A DNA stretch of 64,000 nucleotides from an uncultured Candidatus Actinomarina sp. (lineage in GTDB: Bacteria; Actinomycetota; Acidimicrobiia; Actinomarinales; Actinomarinaceae). The stretch lies in the NCBI GenBank assembly GCA_902610815.1, contig CACLXG010000002.1, forward strand, positions 64,834 to 128,833, written 5' to 3'. The notes below the pieces were generated by a model. It had not been told where the DNA came from. It was given only the letters and a program-made list of their open reading frames with translations, and searched no databases. Of the stretch, positions 1-35,471 are shown piece by piece. Position numbers and translations under genes: made by a program. Within the stretch, counting starts at the first letter, position 1, and each line of letters begins with the position of its first letter.

Positions 1-2
1 TC

Positions 3-761
3 ATTTATCTAGTTGGATTTTTATGTTTAATAAATTATAAAGAGTATCCAAAAGCTAATACTTTCGTATTGTTTGTTATGGCTTTATACAAGCTGCATCC
101 ATTTGGTTTTCTTTTAGGACTAACTTTTTATTTTGCTATTAAAATGGAAAAAAAATATTTTCAAATAAATCTCTGTGCAGTAGTGTTATTTTTTGTTACA
201 TATTTTGTTGACGCAATTGTAAATAGAAATTTTTTGGCAACAGAGTTGAGACCTGCAGACATAAGAACAACTTTTGGATTATTGGCTGACTCATTAATTC
301 TGAATAAATATTTAAATCTTGACACTCCACTTTTATATATGGGTTTATGCATGTTGATCATTTTATTCTCACTTTACTTTAGAAGAATGCACAATGAACT
401 ATTTTTTGATTTAGATGATAAATATAGTTTAATTTTTTACTCTTTTTCTTTTCTAATTTTAATTAATTTTATATACGCAAACTACGATTACAGAATAGCA
501 CTTTTTATGCCTGTCTCTTATCTCATATATATAAAAAATAAAACAAACATGAATCTTTTGCATTACTTTATATTTTTAATGCCTATAGGGCTAGAAGTAA
601 CTAGCTTGGATGACAGATTTATATTGATTGATAATACTCTTTCTGTTGTTGGTAGGCTCTCAATCTATATGTTGATAGGCTTTCTTGTAGCAAATATAAT
701 AAAAAATATTCAAGATATTTCTTTAACAAATATCTACAAGTTTGTTACTAAGAGTATTTAA
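3..761 (+). CDS. Polytopic membrane protein, 5'-truncated by window edge
   Basis: The reading frame is open from base 3, so the gene begins upstream of the window; a TTG at 69 is only the first internal start-like codon. The visible part (about 252 residues) is strongly hydrophobic, with about six or seven predicted membrane segments and a polar loop carrying KLHPFG near the visible N-terminus. It heads the glycan island, and its layout resembles polyprenol-dependent GT-C or polymerase-type membrane enzymes. No catalytic motif can be named, so the role (GT-C transferase or polymerase) is inference from context. Confidence 0.6.
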   Translation: MYLVGFLCLINYKEYPKANTFVLFVMALYKLHPFGFLLGLTFYFAIKMEKKYFQINLCAVVLFFVTYFVDAIVNRNFLATELRPADIRTTFGLLADSLILNKYLNLDTPLLYMGLCMLIILFSLYFRRMHNELFFDLDDKYSLIFYSFSFLILINFIYANYDYRIALFMPVSYLIYIKNKTNMNLLHYFIFLMPIGLEVTSLDDRFILIDNTLSVVGRLSIYMLIGFLVANIIKNIQDISLTNIYKFVTKSI

Positions 762-962
762 TTACCGATTGGCAACAACTTTACTTTAATAAAAAATCAT
801 TAACAAATTATTGGTGACAATTTAAATAAATTATCCAACTTTATGTCTATACAGTTTCAGGATTAGCTACTTATCTTATACATAAGGTTAAATTCTGTTA
901 ATAGATGTATATTTTAAAAATACTTTAAATTTAAGAAAATTTAGTAATTACCATTAAATTAC

Positions 963-1898
963 ATGTTGAATTATCTTTTCTGTTTAGATCAAAATTATAA
1001 TAAACAACTTTTAACAACTCTTAATTCATTAAATGTAAATTCAACATCAAATTTCAATATTTATATTATTCATAATGACCCAGAGTCTTTGTATAGTGAT
1101 ATTGAAGAAAATAATATAAAATTTAATAAAATTAACAAATTTCAAGTATTCAAATATACTTCAAACGATTTTGCTTTTCCAAATCTTGAAAACAATCATA
1201 TATCTGAAGCAACATATTATAGGTTCTTTATTGAGGATTATATTAATGAAGATGTTGATTATTTAGTGTATCTTGATTGTGACATATTATGCCTCAACAA
1301 TCCTAGTGATGTATTGGCTGAGACAATTAGAAAATTAGAGAAGTCAAGCTACATGATTGCTGCATCAACTGAGTATATTCATACTGAAGACACTTCTGAA
1401 TTATTTAATAGGCTAGACCTAAGCAGTACCAGCTACTTTAATGCTGGCGTAGTAGTAATCAACTATCAGATGTGGAAAAGTGAAAATTTAAAACAAAAAT
1501 TATTACGCACTATGGAGCAAATTCATGAAAAGGTAAATTTTTGGGACCAAGATATATTAAATCATGTTTTTGATGGAAACTACCTAACAATTTCTAACAA
1601 CTTAAATTTCTTTGCGCCTGTAAGTAAGCAAAATATAAACAGCAGCTTAAGGTCAGTAATATTTTTACATTTTGCTGGAAGCACTAAACCATGGAGCATT
1701 CAAGGAGCACTCCTGAGCATTTCAAGCATATTCCATGATAACTATTCTTTTATATTTCCTAACAATTATTTAATTGTTACTAATTATAAAAAGAGAGCAC
1801 TTTTTGATTTAATAAAAAATTTATTTAATCTAAAAATATTTAAATTAGAAAGTCCGATTGATTTTATAAAACAGACTCTCAGATCTCTTAAAGCATGA
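963..1898 (+). CDS. GT8 family glycosyltransferase
   Basis: 311 residues, the usual GT8 length (LgtC/glycogenin-like, retaining, UDP-hexose donors). The metal-binding DxD is visible as LDCDI (D105-D107), followed by the family blocks FNAGVVVINYQMW, WDQDILN and a C-terminal HFAGSTKPW that supplies the second metal/donor-phosphate contact. It probably adds a hexose to a lipid-linked glycan on the cytoplasmic face. It overlaps the next gene by 4 nt (ATGA), so the two are probably translationally coupled. Family assignment is firm; the sugar and linkage cannot be read from sequence. Confidence 0.9.
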   Translation: MLNYLFCLDQNYNKQLLTTLNSLNVNSTSNFNIYIIHNDPESLYSDIEENNIKFNKINKFQVFKYTSNDFAFPNLENNHISEATYYRFFIEDYINEDVDYLVYLDCDILCLNNPSDVLAETIRKLEKSSYMIAASTEYIHTEDTSELFNRLDLSSTSYFNAGVVVINYQMWKSENLKQKLLRTMEQIHEKVNFWDQDILNHVFDGNYLTISNNLNFFAPVSKQNINSSLRSVIFLHFAGSTKPWSIQGALLSISSIFHDNYSFIFPNNYLIVTNYKKRALFDLIKNLFNLKIFKLESPIDFIKQTLRSLKA

Positions 1899-2539
1899 AT
1901 TTAAATTTTAAAATATATATAGTTCATTATAAAAAATTAATAGATAGAAAAAAAATAATTGAAAACTCATTAATTAGTTACGGTATGTCATATTATTTTG
2001 AGTCGAATTACGACAGAGCAAATCTCGATCCAAAAGATAAGAAAAAATTTTCAGCGAATATTGAAGACTCATATAAAGCAAATTTTTTATCACACATCAA
2101 ATGTTATGATTTACTTCGCACATCTGGTGAAGACTATGCACTAATTCTTGAGGATGATTCAGTTCCTGGTAAATTGTTTTATGAAAATATAGAAAATTAT
2201 TTAAAGAAACTTCCAAAAGATTTTGGACTATTTTTTGTAAGTGAAGGAAAAAATAAATTTAAAATACCACGATATTTAAGAAGGCCTTTTAAAAAAGTTT
2301 ATAAAAAAGACAGTCAACCTGTCTCGTGGGGAGGGGCCGGTGCATCTAGAAATGCAGATGCTTATTTTATATCCAAGAAATATGCACAAATACTGTTTGA
2401 TGAATTTAATAGTGAAAATTTTTTTGCGGAAACAACTATTGATTGGTGGATGAATGATGTAATAAGGAAATATGAAATACCTGTTTATTGGGCCCAACCT
2501 TCTCTTATCGAAACTAACAAATACGAGACTTCATTTTAA
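1895..2539 (+). CDS. GT25 family glycosyltransferase
   Basis: 214 residues of GT25 type (LOS/LPS galactosyltransferase-like). It starts directly with the characteristic strand YIVHYKKLIDRKK. The acidic motif LILEDDSVPG (EDD at 86-88) sits where GT25 enzymes carry their catalytic/metal ExD, and SWGGAGASRNADAYFISKKYA matches the conserved region in which the family reads Y(L)IS. It is the second gene of a pair with the upstream GT8 gene, starting inside its stop codon. The acceptor is unknown. Confidence 0.85.
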   Translation: MNLNFKIYIVHYKKLIDRKKIIENSLISYGMSYYFESNYDRANLDPKDKKKFSANIEDSYKANFLSHIKCYDLLRTSGEDYALILEDDSVPGKLFYENIENYLKKLPKDFGLFFVSEGKNKFKIPRYLRRPFKKVYKKDSQPVSWGGAGASRNADAYFISKKYAQILFDEFNSENFFAETTIDWWMNDVIRKYEIPVYWAQPSLIETNKYETSF

Positions 2540-2638
2540 GTTAAAAAAGAATATTGATCATTTCTTAATTTAATTATTGTAAATCTAGTGTTTTGTAGAT
2601 TTGTAAAAAAAATATAAAAATAAATGGGAAGATTTTTA

Positions 2639-2713
2639 ATGAAGAAAATTCTAATATTATACTCATTATTTTTTAAGTACTTTTACAAATGTATGATAAA
2701 CCATATTGAATAA
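2639..2713 (+). pseudogene. 24-residue ORF with Shine-Dalgarno, possible glycosyltransferase start relic
   Basis: A short frame (begins MKKILILYSLFFKY, ends at TAA) preceded by GGGAAG at 2626-2631 with 7-nt spacing. Its beginning looks like the first beta-strand of a GT-B glycosyltransferase, but it stops after 24 codons, just before the tRNA-like sequence. It could be the truncated 5' end of a gene lost during rearrangement, or chance. The rest of the 2540-2790 gap holds only the tRNA-like element. Confidence 0.2.
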
Positions 2714-2728
2714 TGTAAAATTATAAAA

Positions 2729-2787
2729 GGTCAAAAGGTTACCCTCTCTCCAAAAAGGGTTTGGCAGTTCGACTCTGCCAATGACCA
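2729..2787 (+). other. tRNA-like 3' half / D-arm-less tRNA relic
   Basis: A near-perfect T-arm is present (TGGCAG 2762-2767, loop TTCGACT, CTGCCA 2775-2780), followed by an acceptor strand ending TGACCA. Upstream, ACCCT (2741-2745) and AGGGT (2756-2760) can pair around a 10-nt loop containing CTCCAAA, which is the anticodon loop expected for tRNA-Trp(CCA). GGTCA at 2729-2733 can pair with TGACC at 2782-2786. There is no D-arm. It is most likely a tRNA 3' fragment left by site-specific integration, because the same kind of fragment occurs for tRNA-Val at 30557 and 31258. Isotype is uncertain because the variable loop is too short for a clean Trp fit. Confidence 0.5.
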
Positions 2788-2790
2788 CAA

Positions 2791-30556: not shown

Positions 30557-30614
30557 AAAAACCCTTGTGGGCGCTACAGGATTTGAACCTGTGACTTCTT
30601 CCTTGTAAGGGAAG
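30557..30614. repeat. att1: tRNA-Val 3'-half direct repeat
   Basis: A 58-bp segment identical to 35387-35444, which is the 3' half of the intact tRNA-Val plus the 11 bp just downstream of it (the AAAAACCCTTG flank). The tRNA part breaks off after the anticodon stem, the usual cross-over position for tyrosine recombinases using tRNA genes. It marks the left edge of the array. The 30479-30786 gap contains only this repeat and the arm-like repeats beside it. Confidence 0.85.
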
Positions 30615-30731
30615 AACGATTAAATACTATTGAGTATCAGAGAGGATCAATTTAAACCATCAATAAACATAAGGCTTGTACTAGTCAGTACCAGAAGCTA
30701 CCAGGTTTTGTCATATGTTTTGGAACAGAAT

Positions 30732-31257: not shown

Positions 31258-31315
31258 AAAAACCCTTGTGGGCGCTACAGGATTTGAACCTGTGACTTCT
31301 TCCTTGTAAGGAAAG
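31258..31315. repeat. att2: tRNA-Val 3'-half direct repeat
   Basis: 57 of 58 bases equal 30557-30614 and 35387-35444 (one G-to-A change at 31312). It shares the extra flank CTG before the A-run with the copy at the intact tRNA, and shares the element-side GAACGATTAAATACTA with att1. The 31123-31428 gap holds only this repeat and arm-like repeats (TATCAGAAGTTATCAGAG at 31390 and similar). Confidence 0.85.
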
Positions 31316-35386: not shown

Positions 35387-35444
35387 AAAAACCCTTGTGG
35401 GCGCTACAGGATTTGAACCTGTGACTTCTTCCTTGTAAGGGAAG
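35387..35444. repeat. att3: direct repeat within tRNA-Val gene
   Basis: The chromosomal-side copy of the 58-bp repeat, made of the 3' half of tRNA-Val and 11 bp beyond. It is identical to att1 and differs from att2 by one base. Here the sequence continues into the intact 5' half of the tRNA. Confidence 0.85.
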
Positions 35445-35471
35445 CGCTCTGCCGGACTGAGCTAAGCGCCC
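35398..35471 (-). tRNA. tRNA-Val(UAC)
   Basis: A complete 74-nt cloverleaf on the minus strand: acceptor GGGCGCT/AGCGCCC, D-arm GCTC/GAGC, anticodon stem CTTCC/GGAAG around CTTACAA (anticodon UAC), 5-nt variable loop, T-arm ACAGG/CCTGT with TTCAAAT, discriminator A. The 3' CCA is not encoded. GGGTTTTT follows. It is the intact attachment gene for the elements to its left. Confidence 0.95.

Follow-up and report, generated by a model that had tools for sequence, protein, structure and literature searches.

Phage and island right attachment sites (attR) in tRNA genes, with the crossover in the anticodon loop, form a known class of junction, and integron cassettes are short modules of mostly one or two genes, with a recombination site behind the gene, that are stacked at one entry site. 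In Candidatus Actinomarinales, the available text of their description reports a glycan island (flexible genomic island 1) in all genomes studied, which grows by cassettes at tRNAs and leaves tRNA direct repeats at recent insertions; five tRNAs are cassette targets, and tRNA-Phe is single copy (PMC7771536). Tycheposons, as characterized in the text available, are elements of 4-200 kb with a tyrosine recombinase and a tRNA border (PMC10872708). Here, we analyzed a stretch of 64,000 nucleotides (the window) from an uncultured Candidatus Actinomarina sp. (GenBank assembly GCA_902610815.1; contig CACLXG010000002.1, C2 below). A sequence-only reading had reported a D-arm-less, tRNA-like sequence at positions 2729-2787, directly upstream of a methyltransferase gene, and had proposed either an attachment-site remnant at an earlier insertion edge or an independent tRNA-like RNA. 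Our analysis indicates that positions 2657-2789 very probably represent a degraded attR of a tRNA-Phe-targeted glycan-gene cassette.

Similarity of the site to tRNA-Phe

The letters at 2729-2787 were as earlier described, and RNA folding of 2729-2789 gave three helices with the D-arm absent, as had been proposed, at -19.8 kcal/mol (z -2.56; 1 of 200 shuffles was equally good). The acceptor pairing, GGTCA/TGACC, was present with its 5 bp. The anticodon-like stem, ACCCT/AGGGT, had the 5 bp attributed to it and a loop of 10 nt, not 7, and the T-arm carried the reported loop TTCGACT on a stem (TTGGCAG/CTGCCAA) that has 7 bp, counting the outer T-A pair, instead of 6. The ACCA-like end did not hold up: the letters are TGACC-A-CA, which do not truly encode a CCA end. 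ARAGORN called no tRNA at the site, and the Rfam tRNA model found nothing there at the gathering score, nor at E-values up to 10 on 2550-2900; recognition by the tRNA covariance model, as expected of a functional tRNA, was not seen. Among the tRNA calls in this genome (1.1 Mb) were a tRNA-Leu with anticodon AAG, which is unusual in a bacterium, and a tRNA-Arg with anticodon ACG.

When the site was compared with each of the genome's 37 tRNAs, its best local score, 47, was to tRNA-Phe(gaa), a score reached by 0 of 1000 dinucleotide shuffles of the site (best shuffle 41). Among 6394 61-mers taken every 20 nt along both strands of the window, the site ranked next after tRNA-Val and its two fragments. 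The similarity to tRNA thus exceeds chance. Its last 38 nt aligned with tRNA-Phe positions 38-75 with 31 identities; the T-stem was intact, and the acceptor 3' strand was changed from TCTGGCC to AATGACC. The T-arm of the site is the tRNA's own. The only full tRNA-Phe found in the genome lies at C2:58974-59046 on the plus strand, and the site, at C2:67542-67622, is on the same strand 8.5 kb downstream. The arrangement expected of an attR was thereby found, namely, the 3' part of a tRNA from the same genome, on the same strand and downstream of the intact gene. The full-length tRNA that an attachment-site origin called for exists, although its 3' half is similar rather than identical to that of the site.

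Conserved element end and stacked cassettes

The comparison comprised 42 genomes of one genus, Candidatus Actinomarina; family- and order-level searches covered the same number, 42. A near full-length tRNA-Phe was found in 31 of these genomes, 29 of the genes being identical over 73 nt, and 30 partial matches without the 5' part were found in 21 genomes (E-value up to 5e-6), some of which end before the 3' end; this count omits the 8-65 and 8-29 matches, which are other tRNAs in the window's own genome. We fetched 40 loci and aligned tRNA-Phe positions 22-75 along both strands with a score cut of 36. Further partial copies, 1-3 per locus, were located downstream on the same strand at 13 of 27 tRNA-Phe loci (12 of 26 without the window's own genome), and antisense copies at a score of at least 36 numbered 0 in the 40 loci scanned. 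Because 13 of the 40 loci were oriented by the fragment itself, orientation was tested by the 27 tRNA-Phe loci alone, whose fetched lengths vary from 1.2 to 12.1 kb. Same-strand downstream copies of this kind are what repeated insertions behind a single tRNA would leave. In clean copies of the relatives, the part identical to tRNA-Phe starts around positions 29-32, where the anticodon loop has its 5' edge.

Many of the relatives' copies are preceded by a similar sequence, AATAAGTTAAAATnAnnTAAGGTCAAATGGTTTGCCCnTAT, which is followed by CTGAAAAACAAGGGG of the tRNA. We aligned 17 sites, picked by eye for a visible element end from 34 fragment places, and built a profile from 15 of them, representing 13 relatives, with the window and G040 sites left out. 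This profile matched window positions 2657-2788 with an E-value of 6.1e-17. With the tRNA part cut off, the element part alone matched 2680-2747 (E-value 2.5e-7; next-best place in the window, 0.97), and in 10 shuffled windows the best scores were 10.0 bits vs 27.0 for the element-end profile and 9.0 vs 57.9 for the full profile. The 15-site profile and the shuffle controls are independent of the window, which cannot be said of the window E-values from model R1, which contains the window site. A later model also matched some of the 17 unpicked places, e.g., G029 C2:26968 and G025 C3:59823. In a blastn comparison of 22 kb of the window's own contig with 38 fetched loci, the site matched those of G040 (E-value 4e-10), G026 (1e-9), and G028 (3e-12). 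The profile matches and these three relatives therefore assign GGTCA to the shared element end, not to the tRNA half, and an element-specific end common to other insertions is joined to the tRNA part, as in an attR. The remnant proposed by the sequence-only reading is backed by the upstream tRNA-Phe and by the relatives, in which less worn copies of this junction lie, with the same element end, behind tRNA-Phe, as was to be checked at the island edge.

Within the element end, 10 of the 17 aligned sites have TAAAAT and a further 2 have TATAAT; in the window, the box lies 7 nt before GG. The start of tRNA-Phe identity is enclosed by the inverted repeat CCCTT/AAGGG, which in the window reads ACCCT/AGGGT. 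For tyrosine recombinases, an inverted pair around an overlap of 7-8 bp constitutes a core-type binding site, and by this analogy the "anticodon stem" may best be read as recombinase core arms around the crossover. The putative crossover region of the window is shorter than the consensus by 4 nt. A sister site in G040 (L142:2460-2544) has a similarly altered acceptor, AATGtCC vs AATGaCC in the window, and is followed 3 nt on by an epimerase gene; the altered acceptor variant seems to be inherited independently of cargo. Two other candidates in this region were dropped: a match to the SAM-V riboswitch (minus strand, 2666-2708) scored 15.8 vs a gathering score of 41, and a 24-aa open reading frame (ORF) at 2640-2714, recognized by eye, lies mostly within the conserved element end and was not taken as a gene.

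The stretch from tRNA-Phe to the site encodes GT8 and GT25 glycosyltransferases, a weak FkbM-type match under the Pfam cut-off, and several ORFs without a Pfam match. Two remnants lie between them, one at C2:64123-64167, where an element end with the core CTGAAAAACAA is then broken off (profile E-value 4e-4), and one at C2:60433-60513 (E-value 0.06). If both are real, they divide the stretch into modules of approximately 1.5, 3.7, and 3.5 kb, of which the last, whose end is in the window, starts outside it near C2:64172, with the former remnant at its border.

Altogether, 20 stretches between neighboring sites measured 261-3658 bp, and 16 of them contained 1-2 ORFs of at least 70 aa. By blastn, 13 of the 20 had a right end of at least 100 nt in common with another stretch, mostly with different cargo. 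One cassette of 665 bp had an identity of 99.5% between G005 and G036; its counterpart in G028, over 589 nt, was 98.6-99.0% identical to these. It is the first cassette behind tRNA-Phe in G005 and G036 and the second in G028. Over the 1.5 kb before tRNA-Phe, G028 and G036 were 65% identical, and G005 had just 78 nt in common with the others. The near-identity of this cassette in three species points to recent transfer. The tRNA-Phe array of G016 holds a C-terminal remnant of a phage integrase (PF00589, E-value 6.6e-9) at L147:6925-7359 (G016 C1:88424-88858), and its ORF ends approximately 130 nt before an attR site. Two integrase-family matches were found in 27 of the 42 genomes, nearly all of them of Xer size and one of those in G016 truncated; by coordinates, no such match except that of G016 lies near a tRNA-Phe site in the 42 genomes.

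An origin of the site as a phage tRNA or phage attachment site (attP) was considered and rejected. Pattern searches of viral contigs gave 0, 3, 34, 0, and 0 matches; the 3 were full tRNA-Phe genes according to ARAGORN, and none of the 34 scored above 34 against the site. A blastn search with the G028 site found no match in phage records, and a BLAST search with the window site found none in plasmids.

Fragments of tRNAs were also seen elsewhere. A second tRNA-Phe fragment place (positions 22-73), distant on the chromosome, is exemplified by L167:7706-7757 (G000 C1:197705-197756); at such places, in ten loci from ten genomes, the upstream flank looked similar by eye and the sequence behind was variable, and this is a probable second integration hotspot. 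In the window, a tRNA-Val gene at 35397-35471 is accompanied by two tRNA-Val 3' fragments on the minus strand (30567-30615 and 31268-31315), approximately 700 bp apart with one small ORF between them and flanked, by eye, by GACGCCCAAATGACGCC repeats and a similar upstream motif. They mirror the tRNA-Phe side at the opposite island edge.

Table 1. Features at and near the site (window coordinates unless a locus is named)
Feature	Position	Strand	Basis and remarks
Rest of the putative inserted module: end of a protein of 447 aa with no match in Pfam; GT8 and GT25 glycosyltransferases	1..2656	+	
Conserved right end of the putative inserted cassette, outer part	2657..2728	+	15-site profile of relatives; TAAAAT box at 2716-2721, possibly -10-like
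GGTCAAAAGGTT, conserved element motif (consensus GGTCAAATGGTT)	2729..2740	+	17-site alignment, fold
"Acceptor 5' strand", the first 5 bases of GGTCAAAAGGTT	from 2729	+	17-site alignment, fold
Putative crossover region, inverted arms ACCCT...AGGGT around a loop matching the tRNA-Phe anticodon loop	2741..2760	+	alignments
Displaced tRNA-Phe 3' part (positions 38-75)	2752..2789	+	alignment to tRNA-Phe, 31/38 identical
TylF-like methyltransferase gene, 250 aa	2791..3543	+	Pfam PF05711, E-value 9.4e-12
665-bp cassette, encoding a 127-aa protein without Pfam match	L157:356-1020; also L158, L150		in G005, G036, and G028

Proposed mechanism, adjoining genes, and alternative explanations

We propose that, through a site-specific recombinase, probably of the tyrosine type, a small cassette of glycan genes would have become linked by its right end to the tRNA-Phe 3' half, with the crossover most likely at the anticodon loop, and that the cassette would have restored an intact tRNA-Phe, the present gene, on its left side. 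The old 3' half would have been pushed downstream together with the methyltransferase gene, then directly behind tRNA-Phe, and the two remnants would point to further insertions. What looks like a D-armless tRNA would accordingly be a juxtaposition of the element end (GGTCA...), inverted core arms (CCCT/AGGG), and, as the genuine tRNA portion, the T-arm and acceptor 3' strand. The site itself is presumably inactive at present, and we claim its membership as a junction scar, not as an autonomous element.

Several observations weigh against this proposal. The 7 of 38 bases that differ from tRNA-Phe and the 4 nt absent in the anticodon loop mean that there is no exact direct repeat. Searches with PF00589 found no integrase between tRNA-Phe and the site, where an attR element would be expected to carry one, and no recombinase on the contig. 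Both in-between remnants are weak, no empty site was found among the relatives, and searches of viral, phage, and plasmid records did not reveal the site. The window module, like all three of its own genome, falls outside the 13 of 20 stretches with a shared right end at the blastn cut used. A plain BLAST search with the site in its own genome did not bring up the link with tRNA-Phe, from which it follows that the site is well worn. As a query in the 42 genomes, the site gave nothing convincing (best other E-value 0.008), and the link was therefore drawn from tRNA-Phe itself and the profiles; a BLAST search with tRNA-Phe in the genus did not recover the site.

The start codon of the methyltransferase gene lies 2 nt past CCAC. 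Of 59 tRNA-Phe or fragment ends, 7 have an ORF of at least 80 aa that starts 1-3 nt beyond them (6 of 58 with the window omitted), compared with 0.65% of 288,049 background positions (binomial 1.2e-7, with sites that are not fully independent) and 3 of 402 other CCAC; the 59 ends are 27 + 17 + 15, with L166 and the second of L174 omitted from the 34 fragment places. FkbM-type genes lie directly behind tRNA-Phe in G026 and G035. On the simplest reading, genes whose ATG is at a fragment end were once directly behind tRNA-Phe and were displaced by later insertions, and the methyltransferase gene is read as the first gene of older, displaced cargo. Homologues of it occur in 3 of the 41 other genomes (G028, G021, and G033; 47-68% identity) in other surroundings, that of G033 being 1 kb from tRNA-Phe on the opposite strand. 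By eye, no tRNA-like sequence was present immediately upstream of these three; the tRNA-like sequence therefore goes with the site, not with the gene. Among window ORFs of at least 150 aa, a Shine-Dalgarno-like core precedes the first ATG, assumed to be the start, in 6 of 49, and this rarity suggests that much translation may be leaderless or otherwise independent of such cores.

A likeness to tRNA that arose by chance in an AT-rich spacer would agree with the empty Rfam and ARAGORN results and with the absence of a strong match to the site by BLAST. The shuffles of the site, the same-strand recurrence, and the shuffle controls make it extremely improbable, and the match of the element-end profile built without the window refutes it. 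A different proposal concerns what the site might do: transcription from TAAAAT would start near GGTCA, RNase Z (or P) would cleave the fold of acceptor and T-arm, the methyltransferase would be freed as a near-leaderless mRNA, and the scar would have been retained as a signal for expression. An acceptor and a T-arm are nearly all that RNase Z requires, and such a role would be compatible with an attR origin, not exclusive of it. The recurrent boxes make transcription possible, the excess of adjoining ATGs over both backgrounds agrees with it, and the 5-bp acceptor pairing is present in the window. Complementarity to the tRNA 3' end peaks at the expected distance among 36 tried, yet that distance gives 4.8 of 7 pairs vs 4.6 at another distance; three diverged sites, with the distance displaced by 1-3 nt, still form 6 of the 7 acceptor pairs, whereas the G040 sister site, counted from the letters, pairs just 3 of 7 at the equivalent place. 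Paired cells amounted to 80.8% vs 35-57% when the partners were slid, but 495 of 500 shuffles gave at least as many, and pairs changed on both sides, the compensatory changes expected of a functional D-armless RNA, numbered 0 of 17 across the 17 sites. The scarcity of Shine-Dalgarno cores in the window, moreover, makes a special leader unnecessary. The analysis does not support a functional D-armless RNA, covariation lending nothing to the independent tRNA-like RNA, and the leader is improbable.

As to how the attR arose, an integron-like route would have tRNA-Phe serve as the integron attachment site (attI), with each cassette consisting of an ORF from the junction plus the conserved 3' site and with a helper recombinase acting in trans. 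The size range of the 20 stretches, their one or two ORFs, and their shared 3' ends would suit it, as would ORFs that begin at the junction and the two Xer-sized matches as the only integrase-family matches of most genomes; that search used PF00589 in general. However, several cassettes bear direct repeats of their own at the left end (by eye), as in ordinary integrative elements, and the truncated phage integrase in one array points to elements of that ordinary kind from which the integrase was lost. We consider the integron-like route unlikely. A broader version, in which surface sugars would be diversified by integron-like cassettes that enter at tRNA-Phe and carry a portable site behind the gene (TAAAAT box, GGTCAAATGGTT, core arms, and tRNA-Phe 3' half), is also unlikely. 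A combination of this core with a role after integration, in which the site would act as promoter and tRNA-punctuation signal and the displaced gene would be expressed as a near-leaderless mRNA, is very unlikely; if true, older cassettes would stay on when newer ones push them from the tRNA, and the window site would be an old, still used example before the methyltransferase.

Relation to known systems

Read as the attR scar of a tRNA-Phe-targeted cassette, an odd D-armless "tRNA" becomes a readable record of glycan-island building, in which modules were stacked behind tRNA-Phe. The conserved element end provides a search handle for old insertions missed by direct-repeat or BLAST searches. The scar also raises the questions of what moves cassettes without an integrase and how genes whose ATG touches the scar are expressed.

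By comparison with the available text on Actinomarinales, the site is an old, degraded example of the published tRNA-directed cassettes: the island is the same and the insertions are directed by tRNAs, whereas theirs are recent and have recognizable repeats (PMC7771536). The shared right end, the TAAAAT box, and an ATG abutting the site are not mentioned for the published cassettes in that text, where the word promoter has 0 occurrences (PMC7771536). Within the literature searched and as far as these searches reach, the new detail is the shared element end together with cargo ATGs 1-3 nt behind the site. With tycheposons, as defined in the text available, these modules share the nature of tRNA-bordered cargo elements of streamlined plankton, but at 1.5, 3.7, and 3.5 kb, and without a recombinase on the contig, the modules of this genome depart from that definition (PMC10872708). 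As in the attR of phages and islands, the 3' half of a tRNA is displaced in the same orientation, the intact tRNA is at the other end, and homology begins from the anticodon loop; unlike them, the window module lacks an integrase and the element measures a few kb. The likeness to integron cassettes lies in the short, stacked modules, whereas here the entry site is a tRNA gene and the site itself is derived from a tRNA.
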